Origin: Bradyrhizobium roseum | Lineage (GTDB): Bacteria; Pseudomonadota; Alphaproteobacteria; Rhizobiales; Xanthobacteraceae | Assembly: GCF_030413175.1 (NCBI RefSeq) | Contig: NZ_CP129212.1 | Span: 2,728,001-2,792,000 of the forward strand | Length of the DNA: 64,000 bases | Direction: 5' to 3' | Shown here: in pieces, positions 39,835-57,823 of the stretch | How the letters are laid out: the number at the start of each line of letters is the position of its first letter | How positions within the stretch are numbered: the stretch's first letter is position 1 | Notes under the pieces: model-generated | The model's database searches: none | The model's input: the letters and a program-made list of their open reading frames with translations, nothing else | Told to the model about the DNA's origin: nothing | Made by a program: the position numbers and the translations under genes

Positions 39835-39871
39835 CTTGTCCAAGAGCGAACTAGCCTTGTCCAAGAGGGAA
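39835..39871 (-). promoter_or_regulatory. paired direct repeats upstream of pqqA (shared methanol-regulon motif)
   Basis: Read on the minus strand, two copies occur 21 bp apart: TTCCCTCTTGGACAAG (39871-39856) and TTCGCTCTTGGACAAG (39850-39835). The same paired motif occurs before the sensor kinase gene (52445) and before xoxF (57691). The site is about 127 bases before pqqA. A common regulator is inferred. Confidence 0.65.
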
Positions 39872-39954
39872 GTTTGCAACGCCACATGCGGCGCTATGCC
39901 GTCAACTCTGCCTGCTCCGTCCTTGCGCTGTGTCGTGCGTCAACCTAGTTTTGA

Positions 39955-39979
39955 TGTCGGCACGAATGTCGTGCCGACA
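39955..39979 (+). promoter_or_regulatory. perfect inverted repeat / hairpin just before pqqA
   Basis: TGTCGGCACGA and TCGTGCCGACA are perfect 11-bp arms around a 3-base centre (ATG). The element ends six bases before the GGGAG ribosome site of pqqA. It could be a protein-binding operator or an mRNA hairpin that affects stability or translation. No T-tract follows. Confidence 0.6.
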
Positions 39980-39998
39980 CTGCTTGGGAGAAACCCTG

Positions 39999-40079
39999 AT
40001 GAGTTGGAAAACTCCGAAGATTGTGGAAGTGCCGGTGGGCATGGAAATCAACATGTACGCCTGCGCGGCGCGTCAATAG
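39999..40079 (+). CDS. pqqA: PQQ precursor peptide PqqA
   Basis: A 26-residue peptide beginning MSWKTPKIVEVPVGMEINMY. It has the PqqA signature, Glu16 and Tyr20 in an E-x3-Y arrangement (EINMY), the two residues cross-linked by PqqE to make pyrroloquinoline quinone. A GGGAG ribosome site lies eight bases before the ATG. No pqqBCDE genes follow; the next gene is an outer-membrane-type protein, so this is an orphan copy that must rely on biosynthesis genes elsewhere. It lies in the same cluster as xoxF, whose product needs PQQ, and shares the paired repeat motif upstream. Confidence 0.88.
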   Translation: MSWKTPKIVEVPVGMEINMYACAARQ

Positions 40080-40220
40080 ACGCGTCGAAACGGTCTGCCC
40101 GGCTCCGGCAGCGGTGACGTTGCTACGGGCCGGGCAAGCTGTGCAACTCCCGGCTTAGCGTTATGCTCGGGTGGACTCCAGCTTCCTGCGGATTTGCCCG
40201 CCTAAACCCGTGCCCGCTGA

Positions 40221-41093
40221 ATGCGAATCCTGCCGCGTGCAAAAGCGTTCCGGGCGGCGGCGGTATCACTTGCCGCGCTGTTGCCGGCTGGCGCCCGGGC
40301 CGAGGGCATCGACACCGAGCATCTGTTCGGCTTCATGATCGGTGCCGATGTCGGCAATGTCGGCGAACGGGAGTTTCAAAGCGAGACGACCGGACGCTTC
40401 GGCAAGAACGGCGGTCGCTATCGGGCCCTCGGCCAGGAGTTCGAACTGGAATTCACGCCCGTCCAGAATTTTCGAGTCGAGATTGGAAGCACGTTTGCGT
40501 CGCATATGTTCAGCAGCGTACCGGGCCTCGACGATCAGCGCCGGTTTTACTGGCAGGGCGCATCGCTCGATCTGCGCTACCGCTTCCTAGATCGGGAGAC
40601 CGGGCCATTCGGGCTTACCTTCGCGACCGAGCTGCATGCGAAGCGCGTCGATGAAATGACAGCCGAAGCCGTGCGGGGCTTTGGAACGGAGTTCAGGCTG
40701 GCGTTCGATCGCGAACTCGTGCCTGACCGCGTCATCGCGGCGTTCAACCTGATCTATGAGCCGGAATGGACGCGCCTTGTCGGCAGTGGCGTGATGGAAC
40801 GGGAGTCCATCGCAGGGGTGGCCCTCGGGCTGATGGCGCAGCTGCGCCCCGGTTTCCTGCTGGGTGGCGAGGCGCGCTACCTGCGCAAGTATGAAGGGGC
40901 TGCGCTGGAGGAGCTTGCCGGGCAGGCGTTGTTTGTCGGTCCCACGGCCTATTTCCAACTGTCCAACCGTTCGCGCCTGACCGCAAGCTGGAGCGTTCAG
41001 GCGTGGGGGCGTCCGGCGGGGACAAAGGCGAGCCTCGACCCCGTCAACTTCGAGCGCCATCAGGCCCGGTTGGTGTTTGGCGTCAGTTTTTAA
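40221..41093 (+). CDS. exported beta-barrel-like protein of unknown function
   Basis: A 290-residue protein with an Arg-rich signal peptide (MRILPRAKAFRAAAVSLAALLPAGARA). The mature part alternates polar and hydrophobic residues in strands (FELEFTPVQNFRVEIGSTFA, SLDLRYRFLDRETGPFGLTFATEL, ARLVFGVSF) and ends in Phe, typical of outer-membrane beta-barrels. I do not recognise a named family. It lies downstream of pqqA and upstream of small unknown genes at the left edge of the methanol cluster, but there is no direct evidence of a role there. Confidence 0.7.
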   Translation: MRILPRAKAFRAAAVSLAALLPAGARAEGIDTEHLFGFMIGADVGNVGEREFQSETTGRFGKNGGRYRALGQEFELEFTPVQNFRVEIGSTFASHMFSSVPGLDDQRRFYWQGASLDLRYRFLDRETGPFGLTFATELHAKRVDEMTAEAVRGFGTEFRLAFDRELVPDRVIAAFNLIYEPEWTRLVGSGVMERESIAGVALGLMAQLRPGFLLGGEARYLRKYEGAALEELAGQALFVGPTAYFQLSNRSRLTASWSVQAWGRPAGTKASLDPVNFERHQARLVFGVSF

Positions 41094-41206
41094 GGACAGC
41101 GTGGGCGACTGGTTCCAAGCGTTTCACGGGGTGGTGAAACCTCGTCCCATCCACTAGCGTAGCTTTTTGCGTTATCAATCCGGAGGCGATTCAAGGGATT
41201 TTTGGC

Positions 41207-41443
41207 ATGACCCCCATCGATCTGATCGTGACCGTCTGCGCGGTGCTCTCGCCGGCCACCTGCGAGGAAACCCATCTGGTGTTTTCGTCGAACGTGTCGC
41301 TCAAGCAATGCGCCATGGCTGCGCAGCCCTATATCGCGCAGTGGGTCGGCGAGCATCCGAAATGGACTGCGGTGAAGTGGCGCTGCGAATACCCGCGCCA
41401 CAACCAGAAGGCCTCGAGCGAACCGGTGTGGACGGCGGCCTGA
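41207..41443 (+). CDS. small Cys-containing protein of unknown function
   Basis: A 78-residue protein, MTPIDLIVTVCAVLSPATCEET followed by HLVFSSNVSLKQCAMAAQPYIAQWVGEHPKWTAVKWRC. It has a short hydrophobic N-terminus and four Cys, suggesting export and disulfides. Similar short proteins are common hypothetical genes in Rhizobiales. It is the only convincing gene between 41094 and 41462, and it converges with the next gene. Confidence 0.6.
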   Translation: MTPIDLIVTVCAVLSPATCEETHLVFSSNVSLKQCAMAAQPYIAQWVGEHPKWTAVKWRCEYPRHNQKASSEPVWTAA

Positions 41444-41462
41444 CATCTACGGCCGGCAGCGA

Positions 41463-41807
41463 TTACTTGTTGCAGTCCTTCAAATCCTTGTCCGCGATCG
41501 AAAACACCGCGTCGGCCTTGATGTCGATTCCGCGCACGAAGCAGTGTTTCGCACCGCGGTAGCCGACCTTGGCGTCATAGCGTCCCGGCTCGACGCCCGT
41601 GATGCGCAGGCGTTCGTCGTGGTCGACTTCCTTGTCCCTGTCGTTCAGGGTCTGGTTCGGGCCCCAGTCGTTCTTTCCGGCCGGGGAAAGCTGAAACTCC
41701 GAGACGGTCGCGGTGGTCAGATTCCACAGCCGAATGCCTTTTCCCTGCGCGGCCGCTTCACCGGTGCTTGTTAACAGGAGGGCGATCAAGGCAGGGGTCC
41801 ATCGCAT
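41463..41807 (-). CDS. small exported protein of unknown function
   Basis: A 114-residue protein with a signal peptide (MRWTPALIALLLTSTGEAAAQ). The mature part (IRLWNLTTATVSEFQLSPAGKNDWGPNQTLNDRDKEVDHDERLRI) looks like a small beta-sandwich and has two Cys (HCFVRG, KDCNK) that may form a disulfide. It resembles periplasmic hypothetical proteins seen often in Bradyrhizobium. Function unknown. Confidence 0.65.
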   Translation of the reverse strand: MRWTPALIALLLTSTGEAAAQGKGIRLWNLTTATVSEFQLSPAGKNDWGPNQTLNDRDKEVDHDERLRITGVEPGRYDAKVGYRGAKHCFVRGIDIKADAVFSIADKDLKDCNK

Positions 41808-41975
41808 CGGGCTGTCCTTTCGTCACGTACCGCCAATGTAACATGCAGCGCGATACCTGCCCATCCGGCGTCGCGCGACGGCTTGTCGATGGGGGCGACT
41901 TTCGCATCGCAAAAGAGCTGCCTTTTCAGAAGCGCAATCATGACATAGCCTTTCACAGCTGTGAGCGGGAGAGCA

Positions 41976-42329
41976 ATGATGGCCTTTGTCGGATTGATGG
42001 GGCGAGCGGCTGCTGCATTGGCCGTGCTGGTGACGGCGGCGCATGCCCAGGACGTCAACGACTATCCGACATCGGCGCGCGTCGAATATGTGTTCGGCTG
42101 CATGAAGGCCAATGGCGAGACGCGGCAGGCGATCGAGCAGTGCTCCTGCTCGGTCGATGTCGTCGCGTCGCTGGTGCCCTATGCACGCTACGTCACGGCT
42201 GAAACCGTGCTCAGCATGGCGCAGGTCCGCGGTGACATGGGCAGTCCGTTTCGTACCTCCGAGATGGCGACGAACGCGCTCAATGAACTGAGACGAGCGC
42301 AGGCCGAAGCGGAAGTGCGCTGCTTCTAA
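41976..42329 (+). CDS. exported small Cys-rich protein of the PQQ/methanol cluster
   Basis: A 117-residue protein with signal peptide ending near AAHAQ (about residue 25) and a conserved-looking core: RVEYVFGCMKANGETRQAIEQCSCSVDVVASLVPY, with Cys in CMKANG and CSC. The spacing is not a CxxCH haem site. From memory, homologues neighbour the SoxYZ-like and PQQ genes in methylotrophic Alphaproteobacteria. It is convergent with the SoxYZ-like gene. Start at 41976 follows a GGGAGAG site; 41979 is an alternative. Confidence 0.65.
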   Translation: MMAFVGLMGRAAAALAVLVTAAHAQDVNDYPTSARVEYVFGCMKANGETRQAIEQCSCSVDVVASLVPYARYVTAETVLSMAQVRGDMGSPFRTSEMATNALNELRRAQAEAEVRCF

Positions 42330-42338
42330 AAGCGTGGA

Positions 42339-43157
42339 TCACGTCCCGGAATTATCAATCGGCCATTCGCGCTGGAAGACACGCCCGTCGGTATCCTTGG
42401 CCTCGGCACGAAAACGCTTTGCACCGTTCGACACATAGGTGAACCGGATATTGGGATCTTCCGAGATCGAGATGCCGCCTTCCATGCTCAACACGAGACT
42501 GTCGTCCTGTGAAAGCCGCAGTTCATTGATGAAGAGGGCCGGGGTGTACAATTGCGTAACCTGGTCCATCTGCAGGCCGGAATTGTTGGGATGTCCAATC
42601 ATGATCTGCGCCTCGCGCGCGCCACTGATCGGGCCTTCGCCGGTTTTTGCAAACTGCCGGTAGCGCATCTGACCCAGTCGGCTTTTGGCATCGTCGGCGA
42701 CCTTGGCGGCGGGCGCCGAGCAGCCGCCGGACGCCTTCACATAGGTTTTGACCATGTACAACTGGCCGTCGCTGAGTTCGGCCACCGCATGAACGTCGGT
42801 GTAGTTGTTGACGCGAACGCGGGTGGAAATCTCTGACACCTTGGCGTCCGGCCCGAGCCGGAATTTGGCCGCCATCGGCGCTGGGTTCTGGTCGATCACC
42901 AGCGTGATGCTCTGCACCTGCCTGCTGTCACCTGCGGGAAGTTTCATTCGCAGCGTCACCGGCACGATCGCGGCATCCTCTGCGCGGACGGGCATTTCGA
43001 TGGAGACCACGTCGCTGCCGTCGAGCATCGGGCGGTTGTTGAAGATGTCCTGAACCAGGCCGGGCCAGGGATCATTCGCCTCCGCCGCGTGCGATAGCGG
43101 TGCGCTCAATAGCAGAAGGCCGGCGACGGCGAACAGGCGGAGAGAATATCCGGGCAT
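42339..43157 (-). CDS. quinoprotein dehydrogenase-associated SoxYZ-like carrier
   Basis: A 272-residue exported protein (signal LRLFAVAGLLLLSAPLSHA). The N-terminal half resembles SoxY, including the carrier-type tail (YVKASGGCSAP, with Cys near residue 147), and the C-terminal half resembles SoxZ (MIGHPNNSGLQMDQVTQLYTPALFINEL). This fused family occurs with PQQ-dependent alcohol dehydrogenases rather than sulfur oxidation. The SoxY Cys-Gly-Gly arm is altered to GGC inside the chain. It probably acts in the periplasm as a carrier in the methanol system; the cargo is unknown. Confidence 0.88.
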   Translation of the reverse strand: MPGYSLRLFAVAGLLLLSAPLSHAAEANDPWPGLVQDIFNNRPMLDGSDVVSIEMPVRAEDAAIVPVTLRMKLPAGDSRQVQSITLVIDQNPAPMAAKFRLGPDAKVSEISTRVRVNNYTDVHAVAELSDGQLYMVKTYVKASGGCSAPAAKVADDAKSRLGQMRYRQFAKTGEGPISGAREAQIMIGHPNNSGLQMDQVTQLYTPALFINELRLSQDDSLVLSMEGGISISEDPNIRFTYVSNGAKRFRAEAKDTDGRVFQREWPIDNSGT

Positions 43158-43210
43158 GTGTCACCCTCGTAAGGATGGAACGACGCAGCCATCATACGAC
43201 AATGTGTGCG

Positions 43211-44185
43211 CTATTCCCATTCAATTTCCGAAAATGCTGCAGTTGCGTTGCGGGTGTTGAAGTCGTCGAACAATTCCCACCGGGATCGCTCGGAGCCTGC
43301 CGCGGAGCCTGCCGCCGCGATCGGCTTGCCGCTTTTGACAAGTCCGCGCACGTCCGAGACCAGCGTCTGCAAATACCGTCGCTCTTCGGCCAGCGCCGCC
43401 GGCCATTCGCTTACGGGACCGTGACCGGGAACCACGCGTTGCGCGGGCAGGGCGGCAAGTTCGTCGAGCACGCTCAGCCAGCCGCGGATGCTGCCGTCCA
43501 GTACGGGGGTGTGGGTCAAAAACACCAGATCGCCGGCAAACAGCGTGTTGGTCGTTTCATCCATTACCGTGAGGTCGTTGTCGCTATGCGCCGCGGGCCA
43601 CGCCCGCAACGTCAGTGGCCGTCGGCCCAGATCGAGACGGAGCGTGCCGTCGACGAGGAGCGTCGGCGGCACGATGCGTATCTCGTCGATCAGTTCGTTG
43701 CCCATGGTCCGGCGAAAGGCATCGAGATAGAATTGTCCGCGCGAGGCCAGCGCACGCGGCAGGTTGGTATGGCCGACAAATATCGTTCCATCCTGCACGA
43801 AGGCGGCATTGCCGAAGACGTGATCGGGATGGCCGTGCGTGTTGATGACGTAGCGGATCGGCTTGCCGGTACGGGCGCGAATGGCGGCCAGCAATTGCCG
43901 TGCTTCGCGCAGGCTGCCGCCGGTATCGATCACGGCGACCGCGTCGTCGCCGACGATGAAGCCGACATTGGCGATTGCGCCGTCGTTCTCGCGTGTCATC
44001 TGCGCGGTCTGTCCGGTGTGCACGAATACACCATCCGCAACGGCGTTGACCGGCAATTCCCGCTGCTGCGCGCCCGCGTCTGTCACCGTAACGAACGTTG
44101 CGAATGCAACTGCGATCAATACGACATGCGCCATCTTTCGGCCGCGGTCGAACCACGAAGCACTATCGGAAGTTCCTCGATTCAT
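43211..44185 (-). CDS. quinoprotein relay system zinc metallohydrolase (metallo-beta-lactamase fold)
   Basis: A 324-residue SoxH-related protein. The metal motif is [11 protein letters not shown] (about residue 115), with further ligands in the AHSDND segment (about 200), GDLVF and the [10 protein letters not shown] segment (about 256). An N-terminal hydrophobic segment ([20 protein letters not shown]) indicates export. This family accompanies the SoxYZ-like carrier and PQQ dehydrogenases. The ATG at 44185 is used because it gives a basic n-region; 44134 is an alternative. Its reaction in the methanol system has not been defined to my knowledge. Confidence 0.87.
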
Positions 44186-44355
44186 CGCGGCCCGGTTTGC
44201 GTCGCAACACGGACGGTGTGTCCGTAATCGGGATTATTCCTGTTGCAGGCTGCAAATGACAAGCCTAGCATTTTGTTCGTCTTCGGCTTCAACGGAACTT
44301 CGTTCGTCGAGGTTGCCGATATTTCTTCGAGGCCGGCAACCATGGTGGACCGACA

Positions 44356-45255
44356 GTGCTGCAGCATTTGATGACAGGCGCCGCGCCAAAGCGCCGGCTG
44401 GCAATCGCGCTACTGGCGGTCTTCGCCATGTTCGTTGGAGGCGACGCTGCGCGCGCGCAGATCAACGAAACCGGCGATCTGTCGATCGAACTCGTCGATC
44501 CCAAGGTGCTGCGCGTCTGCGCCGACCCGCACAATCTGCCGTTCTCAAACGAGAAGGGCGAGGGTTTTGAGAACAAGCTCGCCGAGCTGTTCGCCGCCAA
44601 GCTGAACAAGAAGCTCGACTACATGTATTTTCCGCAGGCGACTGGTTTCGTCCGGATGACGCTCGGCGCCCATCGCTGCGACGTCATCATGGGCTTTCCG
44701 CAAGGCGACGATCTCGTGCAGGGCACCAATCCCTATTACCGCACCGCCTACGCGCTGGTCGCCAAGCCGGGCAGCGGCCTCGAAGACGTCGCGGCGCTGG
44801 AAGACGGGCGCCTCAAGGGCAAGCATATCGGCATCGTCGCCGGCACGCCGCCCGCCACCAACATGGCCGTCAACGGGCTGATGATGAACGCCAAACCATA
44901 TCCGTTGATGGTCGATACCCGCCTCGACTCGTCGGCGGAGGCGATGATCGCCGACCTGGTGTCGGGTAAGATCGATGCGGCCATTCTGTGGGGGCCGATG
45001 GCGGGCTTCCATGCCAAGAAGGCGAACCCGCCGCTTCATGTCACGCCGCTGGTGAAGGAAAAGACCGGCCCGCGGCTGGCGTTCCGCATCGGCATGGGCG
45101 TGCGCGGCGCCGACCAGAACTGGAAGCGGCTGCTCAACCGCATGATCCAGGAGAACCAGCCCGCCATCAACAAGATCCTGATCGACTTCGGCGTGCCACT
45201 GCTCGACGAGAACGATCGCCCGATCGGCGCCGAGACGGCCACGAAGGTGCAATGA
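44356..45255 (+). CDS. xoxJ: XoxJ-type periplasmic binding protein associated with XoxF
   Basis: A 299-residue solute-binding-like protein with signal peptide (RRLAIALLAVFAMFVGGDAARAQ). It begins LRVCADPHNLPFSNEKGEGFENKLAELFA and has FPQATGFVRMTLGAHRCDVIMGFPQGDD, matching the quinoprotein dehydrogenase-associated family called XoxJ/MxaJ. XoxJ proteins are thought to help activate or mature XoxF rather than import a solute. The GTG at 44356 has a GGTGGA site six bases upstream; the ATG at 44371 is the alternative. It overlaps the CxxxCW gene by four bases. The canonical xoxF-xoxG-xoxJ order is broken, with xoxJ 12 kb away. Confidence 0.87.
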   Translation: MLQHLMTGAAPKRRLAIALLAVFAMFVGGDAARAQINETGDLSIELVDPKVLRVCADPHNLPFSNEKGEGFENKLAELFAAKLNKKLDYMYFPQATGFVRMTLGAHRCDVIMGFPQGDDLVQGTNPYYRTAYALVAKPGSGLEDVAALEDGRLKGKHIGIVAGTPPATNMAVNGLMMNAKPYPLMVDTRLDSSAEAMIADLVSGKIDAAILWGPMAGFHAKKANPPLHVTPLVKEKTGPRLAFRIGMGVRGADQNWKRLLNRMIQENQPAINKILIDFGVPLLDENDRPIGAETATKVQ

Positions 45256-45800
45256 AGCGCGCGCCCGCAGGCCTGATCCTGGCGGCGCTCACATTCATTG
45301 TCTCGACGTCGGCGCAGGAACGGCCGCCCGAGCCCGACGGCTACCGCATGGAAGACTACCGTACGCCGGTGCCCGCAACGCTTGCCGGCGCGCGCGTGCT
45401 TGGTACCGCTGAGGCCGAAACGATATGGCGAAGCAAGGCGGGCGTGTTCATCGACGTGATGCCGCGCGCGCCGAAACCGGCAAACCTGCCGCAGGGCACG
45501 GTGTGGCGCGACAAGCCGCGACTCAACATTCCCGGCAGCGTCTGGCTTCCGGATACCGGCTACGGCAGGCTCGCGGCGGTGACGGAAGACTATTTGCAGC
45601 GCGGCCTCGGGCGGGCGACGGCGGGGAACGTGTCGACGATGGTCGTGGTGTACTGCCAGGCTGATTGCTGGATGTCCTGGAACGCGGCCAAACGAATCCA
45701 GACCTACGGCTACGTCAACGTTGCGTGGTACCCGGAGGGCACGGATGGGTGGGAACGGGCCGGGTTGGAGCTGACGGAGGCGCAGCCGGAGCCGCGGTGA
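45252..45800 (+). CDS. PQQ-dependent catabolism-associated CXXCW-type (rhodanese-like) protein
   Basis: A 182-residue exported protein (signal MKRAPAGLILAALTFIVSTSAQ). It has a rhodanese-like fold with VFIDVMPR near the centre and the motif VVYCQADCWMSWNAAKR (about residue 138), the family feature of PQQ-linked CXXCW proteins; here the Cys are spaced CxxxCW. It probably acts on sulfur or redox chemistry in the periplasm beside the SoxYZ-like carrier. It is coupled to xoxJ by an ATGA overlap at 45252. Confidence 0.85.
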   Translation: MKRAPAGLILAALTFIVSTSAQERPPEPDGYRMEDYRTPVPATLAGARVLGTAEAETIWRSKAGVFIDVMPRAPKPANLPQGTVWRDKPRLNIPGSVWLPDTGYGRLAAVTEDYLQRGLGRATAGNVSTMVVVYCQADCWMSWNAAKRIQTYGYVNVAWYPEGTDGWERAGLELTEAQPEPR

Positions 45801-45893
45801 CAGCGCTGGACTCAAAACATCGAAAACAACCCCATGCACAGTAGGAAGGGGAGCGGATTTTCATTATCCAAAAGTGATCTTAAGTATATATAA

Positions 45894-46505
45894 TCACTCA
45901 AGTTCCTGCTGGATGATGCGGCCGAGCGCGAACAGCCGCTGATCGATCGCGGTCGGCACCTCGCAGACGAACTTGATGACGCGCTGGCGGTCCTCGAAGA
46001 TGCGGGTCTGCCAGAGCAGCTGATTGCCGAGTTCGTCGACCTTGGCCGGGTCGCGGGAGGTCTCGCCCTGCAGCGCCTGCAGGGCGATCGTATCGGCGCG
46101 GATCTTGTCGGCGGCCTCGCGCTGCTTGCGGGTGATGCGCTCCAGCCCATTCATCACCTGAGAGCGCTGGCCATTGAGCGTGTCGAACAGGCCGCTAAAC
46201 AGCAGCTTGCCGTTTCCGGTCTTGTCGGCGGCGCCCTTCAAATAATCGGTGATCGCCTTCTGCGCCTCCTCCAGCGGGGTCCGCCTGGCCGCCAGCTTTG
46301 CGACCAGCGCGCCGATGGTCGCGTCTTCCTTCCACTTGCCGGCGACGTCGTCGAGCGGCGGCCCGGCCCATACCGCGGCAAGCGATATCTCCGGAACCTT
46401 GGCCTGCACGCACGGCCAGTCCGGATAGCGCGGGTCGGCGGCCTGGGCGGACCCGAACGTCGCCGTCACGGCAAGGCAGAGCGCGATTATCGTCCGGTAT
46501 CTCAT
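45894..46505 (-). CDS. exported coiled-coil protein of the PQQ-linked ABC operon
   Basis: A 203-residue protein with signal peptide (MRYRTIIALCLAVTATFGSAQA). The mature part starts DPRYPDWPCVQAKVPEISLAAVWAGPPLDD and then is mostly helical and charged (ITRKQREAADKIRADTIALQALQG), suggesting a coiled coil; two Cys could pair. It is the last gene of the leftward operon and overlaps the permease gene by four bases. I recognise it only as a hypothetical protein conserved in such clusters. It is probably the periplasmic partner of the ABC-2 transporter. Confidence 0.72.
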   Translation of the reverse strand: MRYRTIIALCLAVTATFGSAQAADPRYPDWPCVQAKVPEISLAAVWAGPPLDDVAGKWKEDATIGALVAKLAARRTPLEEAQKAITDYLKGAADKTGNGKLLFSGLFDTLNGQRSQVMNGLERITRKQREAADKIRADTIALQALQGETSRDPAKVDELGNQLLWQTRIFEDRQRVIKFVCEVPTAIDQRLFALGRIIQQELE

Positions 46506-47350
46506 GCCTCGCCTCCGGCGGGTCCGCGGCGGATCAGGCCGCGCGAGGGATCGTAAGCCGTGATGGCGCCGACCATGAAGGCGATCGTGCAGCCGCCGAC
46601 GACCGCGAGCGAGATCCAGTTCACCTGCCCATACAGCGCGAAGCGGATCAGTTCCACGGCATGCGTGAACGGATTGAACAGGCAGACATAATAGAGCAGC
46701 GGGCTGCTCTCCAGGATGCGCCACAGCGGGTAGAGCGCGGAGGAAGCAAAGAACATCGGGAAGATGACAAAGTTCATCACGCCGGCAAAATTCTCGAGCT
46801 GCTTGATGCCGGATGAGATCAGCATGCCCAGCGCGCCGAGCATCAGGCCCGACAGGATCAACGCCGGCAGCACCGTGAGATAGCCGGTTGGCGGCGGCGC
46901 GATATCCCAGAACCAGGCGATCAGCAGGAAGGCGTAGACCTGAAGCAGCGAGACCGCGGTTCCGGCCATCAGCTTGCACGACAGCAGAAACCATCGCGGC
47001 AGCGGGCTCACCAGCAGCGTGCGCATGTTGCCCATCTCGCGGTCGTAGACCATGGAGAGCGAGGACTGCATGCCGTTGAAGAGCTGAATCATCGCCATCA
47101 GGCCCGGCGCGATATAGACCTCGTACAGGATGTAGGTTTCGTAGGGCGGGATGATGGAGAGGCCAAGCACCTGGCGGAAGCCGGCGGCAAAGATGAAAAG
47201 CCACACCAGCGGCCGCACCAATGCCGAGATGAAGCGCTCGCGCTGATGCAGGAATCGCAGCGCCTCGCGCCAGACAATGCCGTTCAGGCAGGTGAGATAT
47301 TCTGCGAACGAAAAGCCGCTGCGGACCGGCGTTGTGACCGTTGTGCTCAT
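46502..47350 (-). CDS. ABC-2 type transporter permease of the methanol cluster
   Basis: A 282-residue membrane protein with about six transmembrane segments and ABC2_membrane features: LRFLHQRERFISALVRPLVWLFIFAAGF, SMVYDREMGNMRTLLVSPLPRWFLLSCKL and SSALYPLWRILESSPLLYYVCLFNPFTHAVELIRFAL. This permease type usually exports. It overlaps its ATPase and the coiled-coil gene by four bases each. Placement with beta-propeller and PQQ-linked proteins is conserved, but the transported molecule is not known; PQQ, a metallophore or a cytochrome-related factor are all possible. Confidence 0.88.
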   Translation of the reverse strand: MSTTVTTPVRSGFSFAEYLTCLNGIVWREALRFLHQRERFISALVRPLVWLFIFAAGFRQVLGLSIIPPYETYILYEVYIAPGLMAMIQLFNGMQSSLSMVYDREMGNMRTLLVSPLPRWFLLSCKLMAGTAVSLLQVYAFLLIAWFWDIAPPPTGYLTVLPALILSGLMLGALGMLISSGIKQLENFAGVMNFVIFPMFFASSALYPLWRILESSPLLYYVCLFNPFTHAVELIRFALYGQVNWISLAVVGGCTIAFMVGAITAYDPSRGLIRRGPAGGEA

Positions 47351-49136: not shown

Positions 49137-49211
49137 GCGTGATTCATCCGATGCCGGCGGACCAGGCTTCGGAGACGGTGCGGCCAGACCGGCCACCAAA
49201 GCTGTGGCTGA

Positions 49212-49380
49212 TGCATCCTCCCCTGGAGGGGGAGGATCGGTTCGCATGCAATGCGAACCGAGGTGGGGTGAAGGTCTCTCCACGTCCAACAGAGCATGCG
49301 TGGATAGTCTGTCACCCCGCCCCGGCTCACATGGCGCTGCGCTCCATGTGAGCCGACCCGCCCCCTCAAGGGGCGGGTGA
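49212..49380. repeat. cluster of five palindromic repeats in a 338-base gap
   Basis: The gap 49137-49474 contains consecutive inverted repeats: 49215-49237 (ATCCTCCCC arms), 49239-49259 (GGTTCGCAT arms, 9 bp perfect), 49279-49304 (TCCACG arms), 49324-49354 (GGCTCACATGG arms, 11 bp perfect) and 49357-49377 (CCCGCCCC arms). The style matches REP/BIME-like elements widespread in Bradyrhizobium. The rest of the gap holds no gene that I can support. Confidence 0.75.
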
Positions 49381-49474
49381 AGCGAGCCAGCCGACAAGCC
49401 TCGTAAATGCCACAAGCGATTGCCCTGGAAGAGCCTGCCGATAGGCCTTGTGAAGACCATATGCGATTGTTTCT

Positions 49475-50656: not shown

Positions 50657-50761
50657 GGTTCCTCCCTGATCGGTCGTCTCGATCGTGCGCGCGTCGGAGA
50701 CCGTTGGCTCGAACCATGACCGAATGGTCCTGGCTTGCAACTCAATTCTGTGGGGACGATT

Positions 50762-51607
50762 TCATCCCCTCAGACGCTCCGCATGCCAGTGCAGATGGCC
50801 GGACATGAAGGTGGAGATGAAATAGTAGCTGTGGTCGTAGCCGGTTTGCTTGCGCAAGGTGAGGGGGATGCCGGCCTTCCCGCACGCCCCTTGCAGCAGT
50901 TCCGGGCGGAGCTGTTCGGTCAGGAAGGGATCGGCGTCGCCATAATCGACCAACAGACCCGGCACTTTGGCGCCGTCCTCGATCAACGCCACCGCATCGT
51001 GCCGGCGCCATGCCTGCCGGTCGCTGCCGAGATAACCGCCGAGCGCCTTGATGCCCCATGGTACCTGGGAGGGGGCGACGATCGGCGCGAACGCGCTTGC
51101 CGCGCGGTAGCGGCCGGGATGGCGGAGCGCGATGGTCAGCGCGCCGTGGCCGCCCATGGAATGGCCGAGAATGGATTGCCGATCGGGATCGACTGGAAAA
51201 TTTTCGGCGATCAGTTTTGGCAGCTCTTCGGTGACATAGCTCCACATGCGATAATGGCGCGCGAACGGCGGCTGCGTCGCATCGACATAGAAACCGGCGC
51301 CCAGCCCGAAATCATAGGCATTGGCGGGATCGCCGGGCACGCCTTCGCCACGCGGGCTGGTATCGGGAGCGACGAAGACCAGTCCAAGCTCGGAACAGGC
51401 GCTACGAAACTCGCCCTTTTCCGTCACGTTGGCGTGGGTACAGGTCAGGCCCGAAAGATACCAGGCCACCGGCAGTTTTGCGCCGGCGGCATGCGGCGGG
51501 ACATAGACAGAGAATGTCATGTCGGTGCCGGTTTCCTGACTCGCGTGACGGTAGACGCCCTGCGTTCCCCCGTAGGCCTTGTTGAGCGAAACGGTTTGCA
51601 TGGTCAT
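50762..51607 (-). CDS. fghA: S-formylglutathione hydrolase
   Basis: A 281-residue esterase-D-type alpha/beta hydrolase. The nucleophile lies in SILGHSMGGHGAL (about residue 149), the oxyanion region in YLSGLTCTHANVTEKGEFRSACSELG (about 52), and the acid and His in the LLVDYGDADPFL and GYDHSYYFISTFM segments. It hydrolyses S-formylglutathione, made by the formaldehyde dehydrogenase at 60277, to formate and glutathione. The start at 51607 (or 51601) is chosen; upstream residues have no similarity. It lies 31 bases downstream of the response regulator on the same strand. Confidence 0.94.
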   Translation of the reverse strand: MTMQTVSLNKAYGGTQGVYRHASQETGTDMTFSVYVPPHAAGAKLPVAWYLSGLTCTHANVTEKGEFRSACSELGLVFVAPDTSPRGEGVPGDPANAYDFGLGAGFYVDATQPPFARHYRMWSYVTEELPKLIAENFPVDPDRQSILGHSMGGHGALTIALRHPGRYRAASAFAPIVAPSQVPWGIKALGGYLGSDRQAWRRHDAVALIEDGAKVPGLLVDYGDADPFLTEQLRPELLQGACGKAGIPLTLRKQTGYDHSYYFISTFMSGHLHWHAERLRG

Positions 51608-51638
51608 GAGGTTGCTTGTCCCGCGCCGCGCAGCACGA

Positions 51639-52259
51639 TCACGCCACGCCGCTCTCGATGGCGAACCGCACCAGTTCGGCCGAGGTGCGTACACCGAGCT
51701 TGTGGCGCATGATTGACGAGGTGTTGGCGACGGTCTTGTAGGAGGAGTGGATCAGCCACGCGATCTCCGAGAGGCTCTTGCCCGCGCTGAGCAGGCGCAG
51801 GATCTCCATTTCCCGCGCGGTCAGCCGGGAAAGCGGATTTCGCGCGAAGTCGGGTTTTGCGAACGCAAGGCTGCGCGCCATCGCCGGCGGCAGATAGACC
51901 CCGCCCTTGGCGACTTCGTGGACCGCCTCGACCAGATCCTGCGGATCGCCGGCCTTGGAAACGTAGCCCTTGGCGCCGACCTCGATGGCGCGCGCGGCAA
52001 AGACCGGATCGTCGTTCATGCTGAACATGATGATGCGGGCAGACGCGTCACGCGCGAGCAGACGCCGTGCCAGCTCGAAGCCGGAGACCGTTGGAAGGTT
52101 GATATCGAGGACGCAGATATCAGGCAGGTTCTCGCAGAACACGCGCTCGCCGCTCTCGGCGTCGGAGGCTTCCAGGATATGGATCTCGGGATCGTCCATG
52201 AACAAGGCACGGCATCCCGAGGCCACGATGCGATGATCGTCAACGATCAGAACGCGCAT
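51639..52259 (-). CDS. NarL/FixJ-type response regulator, FlhR-like
   Basis: A 206-residue two-component regulator. The receiver has acidic residues in LIVDDHR (D7, D8) and phospho-acceptor Asp52 in VLDINLP. The LuxR-type HTH is LTAREMEILRLLSAGKSLSEIAWLIHSSYKTVANTSSIMRHKLGV (about 145-190). It is divergent from the sensor kinase and lies before fghA. This layout matches FlhRS/RfdRS-type systems that control glutathione-dependent formaldehyde oxidation and methanol genes in Paracoccus and Rhodobacter. It is the most likely binder of the paired repeat motif. Start 52259 fits the receiver; 52277 is less likely. Confidence 0.9.
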   Translation of the reverse strand: MRVLIVDDHRIVASGCRALFMDDPEIHILEASDAESGERVFCENLPDICVLDINLPTVSGFELARRLLARDASARIIMFSMNDDPVFAARAIEVGAKGYVSKAGDPQDLVEAVHEVAKGGVYLPPAMARSLAFAKPDFARNPLSRLTAREMEILRLLSAGKSLSEIAWLIHSSYKTVANTSSIMRHKLGVRTSAELVRFAIESGVA

Positions 52260-52369
52260 TAGCCTTGGTCCCAACACCCGCGTTACTCCCGTTGCTGCAC
52301 CGCATCACAGAGAACACCAGCATCATTCGCAGGCGAACCTGCCGTCGATGCTCATGCAACCCAAGCGAT

Positions 52370-52412
52370 GTTGCGATACGTTGCGATTAGACAGACGCAT
52401 GTTTTGTCTGTC
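52370..52412. promoter_or_regulatory. direct and inverted repeats in the regulator-kinase gap
   Basis: Two copies of GTTGCGAT start ten bases apart at 52370 and 52380. They are followed by GACAGAC (52390-52396) and GTCTGTC (52406-52412), 7-bp inverted arms around nine bases. The elements lie in the 228-base divergent gap and may bind a regulator or RNA polymerase partner. The assignment is inference. Confidence 0.4.
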
Positions 52413-52444
52413 AACGCTCCCCGCGGTCGGGAACTGAAGGCGAC

Positions 52445-52483
52445 TTCACTCTCAGACAAACGCGACTTCGCTCTCGGACAAAA
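52445..52483 (+). promoter_or_regulatory. paired direct repeats just before the sensor kinase gene
   Basis: TTCACTCTCAGACAAACG at 52445 and TTCGCTCTCGGACAAAAA at 52467 are two copies of the motif found before pqqA and xoxF, here 22 bp apart. The second ends at the kinase start codon region (ATG at 52488), suggesting autoregulation, or control of the divergent response regulator 186 bases away. Confidence 0.65.
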
Positions 52484-52487
52484 AGCC

Positions 52488-53855
52488 ATGTGGCAAAAGT
52501 TTTCCTTGCGTACCCGGATCAACTTGCTGCTCGCACTCGTGCTTGCGCTCGGCCTCGCCGCCAATATTGCGCGGCTGGTGCTCGAAGCCGGGCCGCGCGT
52601 CCAGGCCGAAGATCGAAGCGTGGTTCGGTTGGCGCGTGAATTCATCGATACGATCGTCGCGGGACTGAACGAGGCGCCGGACGCCGAAGCGCGGCTGAAC
52701 CGGATGGTCGATGACCTCAACCGGCTTCGCCACATCAGCATCACGCGGCAGGGGGATGGGGCCGGGATGTCGGGGGCGGTGCCCGACACCGGCGATAGTG
52801 CCGGTGCACGCTCGCCGCCGGCATGGTTCGTCGCGTTCGTTCATCCCGAGAAGACGACAGTGAGCGTGCCGATCCTGATCAAGGGAAAGCCTGGTTCGCT
52901 CTTGATCACCTCGCATCCGAACGACGAGGTGGCCGAAATCTGGGACGGCATCATCACCCAGTTGCAGATCGGAACGGTGATCGCGATCGCTCTGTTCCTC
53001 ATTACGACGAGGGTCGTCAGCCGGGCGCTGGCGCCGATCCGGACGCTTTCGGACGCCATGACGAAAATCGAGGCGGGCGGCTATGACACGCGCGTGAAGC
53101 CGGATGGTCCGCCCGAACTCGTTGCGATCTGCGACAAGTTGAATCACCTCGCGGCGACGCTAGGCGACGCGGTTGACGACAAGCGGCGCCTGGCCGAGCG
53201 CGTGGTTTCGCTGCAGGACGTCGAACGCAAGGAAATTGCGCGCGAGCTGCATGACGAGTTCGGGCCCTATCTCTTTGCCTTGCGTGCGCATGCCGGTGCG
53301 CTGACGCGGATCGCAGACGCGAACGACCCGGCCGCGGACGTCGTGCGAAAGCACGGCGGCGCCATACTGGAGCAGGTCAACGCCTTGCAGCAGTCCAACC
53401 GGCGGGTTCTCGAAAAGCTGCGGCCGGCGGGGCTGTCGGAGCTCGGTCTTCGCGAAGCGCTCGGCGCGCTGCTGCGGTTATGGGGAGAGTCGCATCCCGA
53501 CGTCGCCATCGAGACAGCGATCTCGCCGTCGCTGGGCGACACGGGGGAGACGGCCGATCTAACCATCTACCGCACCATCCAGGAAGCGCTGACCAATGTG
53601 TTTCGTCACGCCGGCGCCACCCGTATCAACGTCACCGTTGAACCCGTCGGCCTGACGTCAGGGTTGACGGGGCGAGGCGGCGCACGGGTGCGGGTGCGCG
53701 ACAATGGCAGCGGATTGCGGCCGGACCATAAGCTGGGATTTGGACTGACAGGAATGCGGGAGCGTATTCTGGCGCTGGGCGGCTCGCTGACGATTGCGTC
53801 GGGAGATCATGGCGTAACTGTGGAGGCGGTGGTTCCGAGCGACGCGCGCTATTGA
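52488..53855 (+). CDS. sensor histidine kinase, HisKA_3 type, FlhS-like
   Basis: A 455-residue membrane kinase. A transmembrane helix (INLLLALVLALGLAANIARLVL, about residues 11-33) is followed by a periplasmic domain of about 130 residues, a second helix (IGTVIAIALFLITTRVV, about 162-180), a HAMP linker, the phospho-acceptor His255 in EIARELHDEFGPYLFALRAHAGAL, and a HATPase domain with LGFGLTGMRERILALGG. It is NarX-like and pairs with the divergent LuxR-type regulator. The ligand is unknown; formaldehyde, methanol or a glutathione adduct are candidates by analogy. The ATG at 52488 is chosen; the upstream extension lies over the repeat motif. Confidence 0.9.
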   Translation: MWQKFSLRTRINLLLALVLALGLAANIARLVLEAGPRVQAEDRSVVRLAREFIDTIVAGLNEAPDAEARLNRMVDDLNRLRHISITRQGDGAGMSGAVPDTGDSAGARSPPAWFVAFVHPEKTTVSVPILIKGKPGSLLITSHPNDEVAEIWDGIITQLQIGTVIAIALFLITTRVVSRALAPIRTLSDAMTKIEAGGYDTRVKPDGPPELVAICDKLNHLAATLGDAVDDKRRLAERVVSLQDVERKEIARELHDEFGPYLFALRAHAGALTRIADANDPAADVVRKHGGAILEQVNALQQSNRRVLEKLRPAGLSELGLREALGALLRLWGESHPDVAIETAISPSLGDTGETADLTIYRTIQEALTNVFRHAGATRINVTVEPVGLTSGLTGRGGARVRVRDNGSGLRPDHKLGFGLTGMRERILALGGSLTIASGDHGVTVEAVVPSDARY

Positions 53856-53981
53856 GCCGGGAATTTTTCCCGTCGTGCCCGGGACGTTTTGAATGGTGCG
53901 CAATCCGACTGACATCCTAAGATCATCCGCAACCAACCGGCGGGGAGGCAACGTGACCGGTGGGAATGGGGATGAAACAGT

Positions 53982-56408
53982 ATGGGCGTACGATTCCTGT
54001 TTGTGGGGACAATCCCGCTATGTCTCGTTACCGCCGTCGACGGTGCGCACGCTCAATCCGCGTCCCGTGACAGCGAGGTTTTGCCGGCCATCGAAGTCGT
54101 TGCGCCGACCACAACAGTCGCCAGACCAGCCCGGAACAGGGCCGCGCCGCAGGCGCCCCGCAACGTGCGCCGGGTTCTGGTCTACCCGACGGCGCCGACG
54201 CCGACGGTGCGCTCCGGAATGGATGTCGACAAGGTGCCGGCGGCGATCAATGCCGTCGGAGCGGGGCAGATCGCGCGCACGGGATCGCTGAACATCGGCG
54301 ACGCGTTGCAGCAACAGGTTCCCGGTATCATCCTCAGCGATACGACCGGCAATCCCTTCATGCCGGACATCCAGTTTCGTGGCTTCACGGCATCGCCGGT
54401 CGCCGGCACCCCGCAGGGGTTGGCGGTGTACCAGAACGGGATGCGCATCAACGAGGCGTTCGGCGACACCGTCAACTGGGACCTGATCCCGACGGCCGCG
54501 ATCCGGTCGGTGACCGTCGTGACCAATAATCCCGCGTTCGGCCTCAACGCGCTCGGCGGCGCGGTCAACGTCCTGATGAAGGACGGCTTCAGTTATCAGG
54601 GCGCCGAAACAAACGTCATGGGCGGATCGTTCGGTCGCATCCAGGGCTCGGCACAGGCCGGGAAGCAGGTCGGCAATTACTCGGTCTATGGCGCGCTCGA
54701 AGGCGTGCGCGACAACGGCTACCGCAATTTTGGCGAATCGGCGGTCCGGCGCTTTTACGGCGACGTCGGCTACCGCACCGACAGCAGCGAGTTCCACCTC
54801 AATGTCGGCCTCGCCAAGAACAATTTTGGTGCGTCGGCGGCGGTGCCGATTGAACTGCTGAATAAATACTGGGGCGCGACCTACACGACGCCGCAGACCA
54901 CCGACAACCGCGTCGCCTACGCCAACCTGACCGGAAAGGTGGAGGTGACCCCGACCTGGACGCTCGACGGCTCGGTGCGGGTGCGCAGGTTTCAGCAGAA
55001 GACGGTGGACGGCAACCCGACCGAGACGGAGCCGTGTGCGGCTCCCAACGACGCGTTTCTCTGCTTCAACGATGACACCAACTTTGCAAATGGGGTCAAC
55101 GGCGTTCCGATCGTAAATCCGTTCCCCGCCGATGCCGTGCTGGGGCAGATCGACCGCACCACCACGCGTTCGACGACGACAGGGGCGACATTGCAGGCGA
55201 CCAATACCGACCAACTGTTCGGTCACAACAACCAGTTCATGATCGGCACCAGCTTCGATTCCGGCGTCACGCGTTTCGGGGCCAGCGCCGAACTGGGCAC
55301 GATCGGTTCAGACTATGTCGTTAACGGCAGCGGCATATTTCTTGGGCCATCAGGCGCGCCGATTTCGATCGGTCCGGTCTCGTTGCGCGCCACCAACCGC
55401 TACACCGGTCTCTACGCGATCGACACGTTCGACGTCACCGACCGGTTCTCGGTCTCGGGCGGCGGGCGGTTCAACTACGCTAGTATCAATCTGCAGGACC
55501 AGATCGGCACTGATCTCAATGGCAGCCATACGTTCAGCCGCTTCAATCCGATGGTTGGCGGCACCTACAAGGTCACGCCCGAAGTGACCGCCTATGCCGG
55601 CTATTCCGAGGCCAACCGCGCGCCGACGCCGCTGGAACTCGCCTGCGCCGACCCCGCGCGCCCCTGCATCGTCGCGGCCTTCCTGATTGCCGATCCGCCG
55701 CTGAAGCAGGTGGTGTCGCGCACGATCGAGGCGGGCTTCCGCGGCAGCAAGGAGCTGAACATCGGCACGCTCGGCTGGAAGATCGGCGGGTTCCGCGCCA
55801 CCAACGCCGACGACATCCTGGCGATCCCAAGTCCGGAGGTGCAGGGCTTTGGCTACTTCCAGAACGTCGGGCGGACGCGGCGGCAAGGCATCGAGGCGCA
55901 AGTCAACCTGACATCGAAGGCGCTGCAGCTCTATGCCAGCTATACCCTGGTCGACGCGCGCTTCCTCGATTCCCTGTCACTCAACTCCCGCAGCCCGTTC
56001 GCCGTCGATGACATTATTCAGGTCGTGCCGGGCAACCGGATTCCTTCCGTCCCCCGCAACCGGGTCAAGCTCGGCGTCGATTACGCCGTCACCGACGCCT
56101 TCAAGGTCGGCGGCGATGCCCTGTTCGTCGCCAGCCAGTACTTTGCCGGCGATGAATCCAACCAGGCGGCGCGGCTGCCGGGCTATTCGGTGTTCAACCT
56201 TCACGCCTCGTATCAGATCAACAAGACGTTTCAGCTCTACGGCCGTGTCGATAATGTCTTCGACAAACGCTATGCGACCTTCGGAACGTTTTTCGAGAGA
56301 GACGATGTACCGAACTTCAGCAATGGCGGCGCGGAGTTTAGCGACCCTCGCACCGTCACTCCGGCGCGGCCGCGTGCCTTCTATGCGGGTCTGAAGGCGA
56401 CTTGGTAA
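53982..56408 (+). CDS. TonB-dependent outer-membrane receptor, candidate lanthanide uptake
   Basis: An 808-residue receptor. A signal peptide (to about residue 25) and a linker rich in Pro/Ala are followed by a plug domain (SLNIGDALQQQVPGIILSDTTGNPFMPDIQFRGF) and a 22-strand-type barrel, ending in FYAGLKATW. It lacks an obvious N-terminal STN signalling domain. It is between the two-component kinase and the AraC-xoxF pair, in a cluster dependent on lanthanides. In Methylobacterium, a TonB receptor is required for lanthanide import, so it may import a lanthanide-chelator complex here. That is inference, and other siderophores are possible. Confidence 0.88.
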   Translation: MGVRFLFVGTIPLCLVTAVDGAHAQSASRDSEVLPAIEVVAPTTTVARPARNRAAPQAPRNVRRVLVYPTAPTPTVRSGMDVDKVPAAINAVGAGQIARTGSLNIGDALQQQVPGIILSDTTGNPFMPDIQFRGFTASPVAGTPQGLAVYQNGMRINEAFGDTVNWDLIPTAAIRSVTVVTNNPAFGLNALGGAVNVLMKDGFSYQGAETNVMGGSFGRIQGSAQAGKQVGNYSVYGALEGVRDNGYRNFGESAVRRFYGDVGYRTDSSEFHLNVGLAKNNFGASAAVPIELLNKYWGATYTTPQTTDNRVAYANLTGKVEVTPTWTLDGSVRVRRFQQKTVDGNPTETEPCAAPNDAFLCFNDDTNFANGVNGVPIVNPFPADAVLGQIDRTTTRSTTTGATLQATNTDQLFGHNNQFMIGTSFDSGVTRFGASAELGTIGSDYVVNGSGIFLGPSGAPISIGPVSLRATNRYTGLYAIDTFDVTDRFSVSGGGRFNYASINLQDQIGTDLNGSHTFSRFNPMVGGTYKVTPEVTAYAGYSEANRAPTPLELACADPARPCIVAAFLIADPPLKQVVSRTIEAGFRGSKELNIGTLGWKIGGFRATNADDILAIPSPEVQGFGYFQNVGRTRRQGIEAQVNLTSKALQLYASYTLVDARFLDSLSLNSRSPFAVDDIIQVVPGNRIPSVPRNRVKLGVDYAVTDAFKVGGDALFVASQYFAGDESNQAARLPGYSVFNLHASYQINKTFQLYGRVDNVFDKRYATFGTFFERDDVPNFSNGGAEFSDPRTVTPARPRAFYAGLKATW

Positions 56409-56441
56409 AGCGTGATGGCTCAACCCATCCTACGACGGCGT

Positions 56442-57410
56442 TCACGACGCGTCGGGCAGGGGATCATTCGCGTGCGCCTTGTGGATGGCGGAGGGGACGA
56501 AGCCGAAATGTTTCCGGAACACGCGGCTGAAATGCGACGAGCTGGAAAAGCCCCAGGAAAACGCGACGTCGGTGATGGTCTTGCCGTGCTGCGTTTCCAG
56601 TTCCTGCCGGCAATGCATCAGCCGCGCCCGCCAGATGTAATCGCTGACGGTTATGCCGCGGTCGCTGAACAGCATGTGCAGGTAGCGCTTGGTGCAGCCC
56701 AGGGCGGCCGAGATCCGGTCGATGCAAAGCTCGGGATCGCGCAGATGTTCGCGGATGAAGGCCTGCGCGCGGATATACATCGCTTCGGGGCCGACGCGGT
56801 CGAACATGGTATCGGCCTCGCGCAGCGGCAACAGCAGCAAATCGATCAGCGAATCGGCGACGCCGATGGCGTTGTGGGGCGACAGCCTGTTGGCTTCGTC
56901 GAACGCGGTGTGCACGAAATCATAGGCGATGCGGCCGGTGCCGTTGCGCGCGGAGAGCTTGCACGGCAACATTTTGGCCGTACGGAAGCCACGTTCGTGC
57001 AACAATTCCTTCGGCACGATCACGACCTCATGCCGGGTCAGCGAGGGGCTGACGATGGTGTGCGGGCAGGAGACGTCGTAGGCGAGGCAGTCGCCGGGCA
57101 TGATGTCGATGCGACGGCCGCCCTGTTCGAAATGCGAGATGCCGTAGGTCTGGAACAGGATCTTGACGTAGGGATGTTCGCTGAGCTTCGTGCCGGAGAC
57201 CGTGTGTGCGATGCGATGCTGGCTTGCCTCGATCTGGCACAGCTTCAGCTGCGAAACGGTTGTGTAGTTGATCCGCGCCTCCAGCGAGGACGCTTCCAGC
57301 GGGTCGATATCGAACTGGCCGCAGAGATCGGTCAGCGCGTCTGACCAAGTCTGGATCTGTTTTTTCGGCGTCAACCCGGAAGTGCTGAGCGAGCGGACTG
57401 TATCGGACAT
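56442..57410 (-). CDS. AraC family regulator divergent from xoxF
   Basis: A 322-residue regulator. The N-terminal half is the AraC-binding-2 sensor domain (KILFQTYGISHFEQGGRRIDIMPGDCLAYDVSCPHTI). The C-terminal 100 residues carry the double HTH: RISAALGCTKRYLHMLFSDRGITVSDYIWRARLMHCRQEL and ITDVAFSWGFSSSSHFSRVFRKHFGFVPS. It is divergent from xoxF across a 413-base gap and convergent with the TonB receptor gene. Similar regulators occur near alcohol-oxidation genes. It may control xoxF along with the two-component system. Start 57410 is preferred to 57452. Confidence 0.88.
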   Translation of the reverse strand: MSDTVRSLSTSGLTPKKQIQTWSDALTDLCGQFDIDPLEASSLEARINYTTVSQLKLCQIEASQHRIAHTVSGTKLSEHPYVKILFQTYGISHFEQGGRRIDIMPGDCLAYDVSCPHTIVSPSLTRHEVVIVPKELLHERGFRTAKMLPCKLSARNGTGRIAYDFVHTAFDEANRLSPHNAIGVADSLIDLLLLPLREADTMFDRVGPEAMYIRAQAFIREHLRDPELCIDRISAALGCTKRYLHMLFSDRGITVSDYIWRARLMHCRQELETQHGKTITDVAFSWGFSSSSHFSRVFRKHFGFVPSAIHKAHANDPLPDAS

Positions 57411-57690
57411 GGTCCAACCACCGAATTCGAGAACAGGCCGCGACCTCGGCAAAAGCCTCGGTCACAGGACGCAACATTCATTCAACCTAAGGCAGTCCCA
57501 AGGAAATCCCGAAGGAAGTCGCGCAGATTCTTCCTCATATCCCGTTGGCAATCGTCCAACTTAGTTTTGTCCGCGTCAAGGGGAACCTCAGCCGCGGCGT
57601 TGCGCCGATGCATGTGGGAACACTCCCCCGAATGATGCTGCGCAACATAAAAAAGCCGACGCAGACGATTCAAATTAAAGTTCGCTCTGT

Positions 57691-57727
57691 TTCGCTTTTG
57701 AGCAAACGCGGTTCGCTCTTGGGCAAG
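57691..57727 (+). promoter_or_regulatory. paired direct repeats upstream of xoxF
   Basis: TTCGCTTTTGAGCAAACG at 57691 and TTCGCTCTTGGGCAAG at 57712 are 21 bp apart; a partial third half (TTCGCTCTG) lies at 57681. The set is about 97 bases before the xoxF ATG and shares the motif seen at 39835 and 52445, including the spacer CAAACGCG found also at 52445. In the rest of the 413-base gap (57411-57823) I see inverted arms GTTGCGC (57599) and GCGCAAC (57640) but no gene. Confidence 0.7.
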
Positions 57728-57823
57728 TTTCCCGATTCCGAACGGGATAGGAGTAGGGACCAAGAATGGAAAAATGGGCCGTCTCGGCGGAACCCCAACG
57801 CTCTTCATCTGGGAGGAACCACT

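Follow-up and report, generated by a model that had tools for sequence, protein, structure and literature searches.

Genes and tandem repeats at the xoxF locus

The window analyzed here, a 64,000-nucleotide stretch of the Bradyrhizobium roseum genome (NZ_CP129212.1, positions 2,728,001 to 2,792,000), carries the following genes, predicted promoters, and tandem repeats, with positions counted from the first base of the window:

39835-39850 and 39856-39871, minus strand: tandem half-site pair near pqqA, 21-bp period, reversed relative to pqqA
39923-39951, plus strand: predicted pqqA promoter (TTGCGC-17-TAGTTT), located 51 bp downstream of the pair, with similar promoters in relatives
39999-40079, plus strand: pqqA, PQQ precursor peptide of 26 aa (NCBIfam TIGR02107, 46.9 bits, cut-off 20)
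50762-51607, minus strand: fghA, S-formylglutathione hydrolase (TIGR02821, above cut-off), downstream of the response regulator
51639-52259, minus strand: LuxR/NarL-type response regulator (Pfam Response_reg and GerE); the frame is also open from a GTG at 52277
52386-52414, minus strand: predicted response-regulator promoter, TTGACA-17-TCTAAT, a pattern match
52445-52460 and 52467-52482, plus strand: middle tandem half-site pair, 22-bp period, in the gap between kinase and response regulator
52488-53855, plus strand: sensor histidine kinase (HAMP, HisKA_3, HATPase_c)
56442-57452, minus strand: AraC/XylS-family regulator (AraC_binding_2 and HTH_18), likely start ATG 57410
57691-57706 and 57712-57727, plus strand: xoxF tandem half-site pair, 21-bp period, in the araC-xoxF gap and forward to xoxF
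57725-57753, plus strand: putative activator-dependent xoxF promoter, with a poor -35 (AAGTTT, 57725-57730) and the -10 TA at 57748
57824-59629, plus strand: xoxF, PQQ-dependent methanol dehydrogenase (TIGR03075, above cut-off)
59708-60217, plus strand: cytochrome c (TIGR03874, above cut-off); the operon continues from xoxF
60277-61383, plus strand: class III alcohol dehydrogenase/flhA (TIGR02818, above cut-off)
61418-61984, plus strand: gfa (TIGR02820, above cut-off)

The name xoxF is that given in the original prediction and is based on gene order and not a family model. The response regulator gene is followed on the same strand by fghA and then by PQQ-associated ABC genes. Family models do not back the name FlhR or MctR for its product: the best NCBIfam match, MctR, scored 133.1 and thus fell below its cut-off of 300, and no FlhR model was among the 25 of 76 NCBIfam matches listed. 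Because the neighboring genes are xoxF-cytochrome-flhA-gfa, fghA, and PQQ genes, the oxidation of methanol to formate, or the cofactor for it, is the common theme of the three repeat sites.

Two other features of these regions are recorded here. Within positions 39999-41093, pqqA has no adjoining pqqB; the gene that follows it (40221-41093), which is also there in several relatives, had no Pfam or NCBIfam match and appears outer-membrane-like by eye. A perfect inverted repeat, GACAGAC-N9-GTCTGTC (52390-52412), overlaps the predicted response-regulator promoter and might be an operator bound by the response regulator itself; at up to three mismatches it is matched just once in the window, which is not above chance.

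The original prediction described six copies of a 16-base motif arranged as three tandem pairs, and all six lie where it placed them, with 0, 1, 1, 0, 2, and 0 mismatches to its consensus. Copy positions confirmed within-pair spacings of 21, 22, and 21 bp (about two helical turns), and the spacer said to be common to two of the pairs, CAAACGCG, was seen in the window sequence. To the right-hand pair may be added a lone first box, TTCGCTCTG, at 57681-57689, just upstream of the xoxF pair, as a possible extra partial half-site.

The whole genome (7,319,411 bases) was scanned with a relaxed tandem pair pattern in its 21-bp and 22-bp forms, allowing up to three mismatches. The 21-bp pattern found the pqqA and xoxF pairs at zero mismatches, plus one match with three mismatches, and the 22-bp pattern found the middle pair alone, also at zero mismatches; the three pairs are hence the only zero-mismatch matches to the relaxed pattern in 7.32 Mb. 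A reversed control pair pattern had no match anywhere in the genome. Within the window, the 21-bp pair pattern (up to three mismatches) matched twice, compared with no match in 100 shuffles. A genome scan with the single 16-mer was uninformative (604 matches at up to three mismatches versus 582 for the control). We also built a half-site matrix from the half-sites of 80 named relatives, excluding those of the window. These relatives represent the best 80 of 146 loci found with the AraC-type protein, and comprise 74 Bradyrhizobium, one Tardiphaga, and five MAGs. The matrix ranked the six copies first to sixth within the window (22.2-25.8 bits, next-best 12.5).

Pairs at many unrelated genes had been named as the outcome that would count against the motif; the genome scan, with three target pairs and a single three-mismatch match, favored it. 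We conclude that the motif is real and conserved, and that in this genome it is limited to a small C1 regulon. These results support the claim of a common candidate operator for xoxF, pqqA, and the kinase/regulator gap, and the literature searched held no description of the motif, consistent with the remark in the original prediction that none was known.

Positions of the pairs relative to promoters

At xoxF, a TA follows the start of the proximal half-site by 36 bp in 72 of 75 distinct promoters (77 of 80 loci), for 21- and 22-bp pairs alike, while the distance from the pair to the matched xoxF start varies from 92 to 240 bp in the named loci. A 17-bp spacer counted back from this TA puts the xoxF -35 at the end of the proximal half-site, with the start predicted from sequence. 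The TA at offset 36 also occurs in two genomes discussed below, G136 and G150, but at just one of 35 pqqA pairs.

The geometry at pqqA is of another kind. Of the 40 named loci that extend as far as pqqA, 33 have a pair and seven lack one at up to three mismatches; the pairs number 35, and all of them point away from pqqA. Promoter and pair were both resolved in 28 of 41 sequences tested (the window and the 40 loci), and among these 28 the gap from the pair to the -35 is 50-52 bp in 25 and 40-41 bp in three, that is, two gap classes one helical turn apart. Two loci (L235 and L246) have three tandem half-sites at 21-bp steps upstream of pqqA, not two. In four relatives (loci L107, L112, L162, and L165; genomes G002, G030, G043, and G009), the pqqA pair is followed, in its forward orientation, by a second PQQ dehydrogenase gene that could be a further target; the product of this gene is 37-38% identical to that of xoxF. 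Another possible target was seen in G083, where a pair with one mismatch (L119:376-411) falls within the first part of a matched metallohydrolase gene, next to a divergent xoxJ-like gene; in G083, the 21-bp search gave this pair and the xoxF pair and no others.

A promoter-like element with a 16-18 bp spacer and a varying -10 precedes the response regulator gene in 30 of 30 loci, including that of the window. In all nine of these loci that bear a pair, the pair is reversed and lies 29-31 bp upstream of the response-regulator -35 (30 bp in the window), and because of this position the response regulator looks like a target of the pair. At 10.4 bp per turn, the pqqA and response-regulator gaps have mean phases no more than 0.1 bp apart, and with 10.0 or 10.5 bp per turn the difference is at most 0.7 or 0.2 bp, respectively; a chance match of this kind would not be rare, and the agreement carries little weight. 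We also considered whether the middle pair could serve the kinase as a class II site and rejected this, since the -10, expected 36 bp beyond 52467, would fall inside the kinase gene and the spacing in G074 favors the response regulator.

The middle pair might instead act chiefly on the kinase gene, with the bound regulator blocking expression of the kinase and TonB receptor. This reading concerns one site and is compatible with regulation by the AraC/XylS-family protein. The distance from the end of the pair to the kinase ATG is 5 bp in the window and 4-6 bp in eight of nine loci, in favor of such a block. In G074, however, 47 bp separate the pair from the kinase, yet its distance from the response-regulator -35 remains 29 bp, and at 10.4 bp per turn (less well at 10.0) the mean response-regulator gap and the pqqA gaps share the same helical phase. 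We regard the block as possible but doubtful; it could also occur together with an effect on the response regulator.

The AraC-type gene beside xoxF and the distribution of the pair

The gene at 56442-57452, which the original prediction did not mention, adjoins the xoxF pair and is divergent from xoxF. The encoded protein combines a predicted N-terminal ligand/dimerization domain (AraC_binding_2, 53.6 bits, cut-off 27) with a C-terminal domain containing two helix-turn-helix (HTH) motifs (HTH_18, 70.3 bits, cut-off 33.6; HTH_AraC, 46.7 bits, cut-off 26.6), and residues 225-332 have PDB sequence matches to SoxS, Rob, RamA, and MarA. Its closest NCBIfam model is FeaR (NF007243, 164.4 bits over residues 30-323). 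A plasmid search with the protein (E up to 1e-40) and a phage search with the DNA upstream of xoxF returned nothing. In three genomes (G031, at locus L059, G026, and G538), the AraC reading frame is broken by one TGA and the pairs are retained.

To place the pair in a wider context, we compared its occurrence with that of the AraC gene in samples of 98 genus, 100 family, and 397 order genomes. In the genus, where the AraC gene was scored at E up to 1e-60 and a close response-regulator orthologue at E below 1e-90, each was found in 92 of 98 genomes, and the 21-bp pair in 81. A pair was present somewhere in all 92 AraC-positive genomes (80 from the 21-bp search and 12 others with a 22-bp pair in the araC-xoxF gap), versus one of six AraC-negative genomes, namely G035, which is 80% complete. 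A pair at up to three mismatches lies upstream of araC in every one of the 80 named loci, which were the best of the 146 AraC loci found. In the family sample, the pair occurred in all 11 genomes with an AraC protein of at least 63% identity, and it lay beside araC in seven of seven genomes from four other genera (AraC identity 63-79%). In the order sample, for which AraC was searched at E up to 1e-55 with the best five candidates per genome scored, 18 genomes matched the pair pattern: 15 of 15 AraC-positive genomes versus three of the 382 others, the latter being two-mismatch matches. The Fisher P values of 9e-8 (genus) and 1.5e-24 (order) are uncorrected for relatedness, and the genus, family, order, and named samples overlap.

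Pattern matches in the family sample outside the 11 AraC-positive genomes came from G150, G154, and G189. We rejected the view that all three are chance matches, as that in G150 adjoins an AraC-type gene and that in G189 adjoins pqqA; the match in G154, like those in G226, G389, and G564 in the order sample, looks chance-like. The match in G150 is the only one in that genome and lies 285 bp from the matched stretch of an AraC-type gene of 29% identity, upstream of a divergent gene that appears hydrolase-like by eye. In G136, the pair is located between gfa and araC, with no xoxF within the 19.9 kb read. A site in G177 (AraC identity 46%) has four mismatches and lacks the TA at offset 36. No pair at up to four mismatches was present in the 3.4-3.9 kb around each of ten distant AraC-type loci with 24-33% identity (one each in G097, G006, G167, and G035, two in G189, and four in G048); hence, the motif is not general to the AraC family, and its recognition is limited to this branch and a few relatives.

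These distributions bear on which protein reads the motif. The original prediction favored the LuxR-type response regulator at 51639, which would bind the pairs and activate xoxF, pqqA, and its own locus. Its gene belongs to the same cluster and has one pair in its own divergent gap, and two-component systems (PedS2/PedR2, MxaY) control PQQ dehydrogenase genes elsewhere. Moreover, among the five sampled genomes with the response regulator and without an AraC orthologue, G189 and G035 carry the pqqA pair. The remaining three (G048, G142, and G167) are pairless, however, and of the best 30 response-regulator loci only nine have a pair and 21 have none. Conversely, G030 and G045, both fragmented MAGs, have pairs and AraC and no close response-regulator orthologue, and tandem 15-bp two-box half-sites are the pattern of AraC/XylS operators. 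The assignment was thus not borne out: the pair tracks the AraC-type gene, even in G136 without a nearby xoxF, and we consider it unlikely that the response regulator is the binder. A two-component system encoded next door would be the natural guess for the reader of the motif, and this result corrects it.

As the response regulator, too, is present in nearly all AraC-positive genomes, the choice between the two proteins rests on few genomes and on adjacency; the position of the pair in G136 and G150 is more telling here than co-occurrence. The main result against the AraC-type regulator is G189, a genome of one contig and 100% completeness that has the pqqA pair and the response regulator and no AraC orthologue (best identity 24%). 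An unlinked regulator that reads the pairs, with adjacency to araC due to inheritance of the cluster as a whole, would fit G189 and the concentration of AraC-positive genomes in one genus that inherited the cluster whole, but is highly improbable given that the pair is relocated in G136 and sits beside a far AraC relative, in another gene context, in G150. The AraC-type regulator is the most likely reader of the motif, as judged from these sequence comparisons.

Proposed regulation, inducing signal, and known systems

We consider it likely that the AraC/XylS-family regulator whose gene lies at 56442-57452 uses the pairs as its operators, with class II sites at xoxF and class I sites at pqqA. 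Sequence, conservation, co-occurrence, and geometry are the observations behind this proposal, and binding, activation, dimerization, and promoter positions are what it predicts from them. Each 15/16-bp unit, TTCNCTCTYGGRCAAR, would be the half-site for one DNA-binding domain with its two HTH motifs, and a dimer could sit on one face of the DNA across two units 21-22 bp apart. The forward pair at xoxF, with its proximal half-site abutting or overlapping the poor putative -35 and the -10 at a fixed 36 bp from the half-site start, would support class II activation of the xoxF-cytochrome-flhA-gfa operon. A class I role would fall to the reversed pair at pqqA and, in some lineages, to that at the response-regulator/fghA promoter; there the pair lies upstream of a canonical -35, at distances that differ by whole helical turns.

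Published expression data give some indication of the signal. According to PMC12628762, methanol increased the expression of xoxF 59-fold, xoxG 43-fold, gfa 30-fold, and frmA 27-fold in Bradyrhizobium sp. USDA 3456 when both media contained La, and the PQQ biosynthesis genes showed no rise. Because methanol induced expression with La in both media, a signal other than the lanthanide acts on the xoxF operon of this strain. In this strain at least, the flat response of the PQQ genes argues against a strong activation of pqqA that depends on methanol. Demethylation of vanillate yields formaldehyde without methanol. In PMC4070659, mxaF', blr6214, flhA, and gfa are described as one transcriptional unit, and vanillin and vanillate as inducers of genes for glutathione-dependent formaldehyde oxidation; on our reading, mxaF' of that study is the xoxF of this one. 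Given the induction by vanillin and vanillate and the pair at gfa in G136, we infer, weakly, that the most likely inducer is formaldehyde or an adduct of it.

Taken further, and tentatively, a one-component AraC-type regulator that senses formaldehyde or its glutathione adduct might be the C1 switch of lanthanide-dependent methylotrophy in Bradyrhizobium; through tandem operators of opposite orientation it would drive xoxF-flhA-gfa and pqqA, and in some lineages it would also set the level of the neighboring two-component response regulator. The question can be tested directly, given a named candidate regulator, an operator of 37 bp, a regulon of three promoters, and promoter classes predicted for them. 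Recent physiology exists for the growth on methanol through XoxF of Bradyrhizobium, a genus of soil and root-nodule bacteria. A term search of the main text of PMC12628762, the main recent paper, for AraC, regulator, two-component, and promoter returned none of these words. Our literature searches, whose coverage excluded most subscription papers, found no AraC-type regulator of xoxF and no binding or expression data on this one.

The kind of system is already known, and the regulator, operator, and regulon are without description in the literature searched. Compared with FeaR, the protein here falls below the model cut-off of 199 and its gene context differs. PedS2/PedR2 and MxaY likewise control related PQQ dehydrogenase genes, but PedS2/PedR2 is a two-component system and the regulator proposed here is a one-component AraC-type protein. 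The pairs consist of two direct repeats of about 15 bp, each with two boxes, at a 21-22 bp period, as is typical of AraC/XylS-type operators. At the Pm promoter, XylS sites lie in proximity to the -35 with a 21-bp period. According to PMC5481539, XylS binds two homologous direct repeats of 15 bp that each comprise a 5' and a 3' box. The two-box direct repeats of about 15 bp are shared with the sites described here; the boxes themselves (TGCA/GGTA), the regulon, and the inducer differ.

MtlR offers a second parallel. Its site in PMC4514859 is AGTGC-N5-AGTAT-N7-AGTGC-N5-AGGAT, with 15-bp blocks at -72 to -58 and -50 to -36 of PmtlE and a 22-bp period that spans at least 37 bp upstream of the -35. 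The two 15-bp blocks and the 22-bp period resemble the pairs here, although the sequence and the regulon (mannitol) differ. Finally, RamA appears to bind class I and class II promoters in opposite directions, according to PMC8811837. The opposite orientation of class I and class II sites in RamA, MarA, SoxS, and Rob is thus like that predicted at pqqA and xoxF, but these proteins use a single marbox, bound by a monomer in the MarA-DNA structure, whereas the system here has two tandem units and a regulator with a ligand domain.
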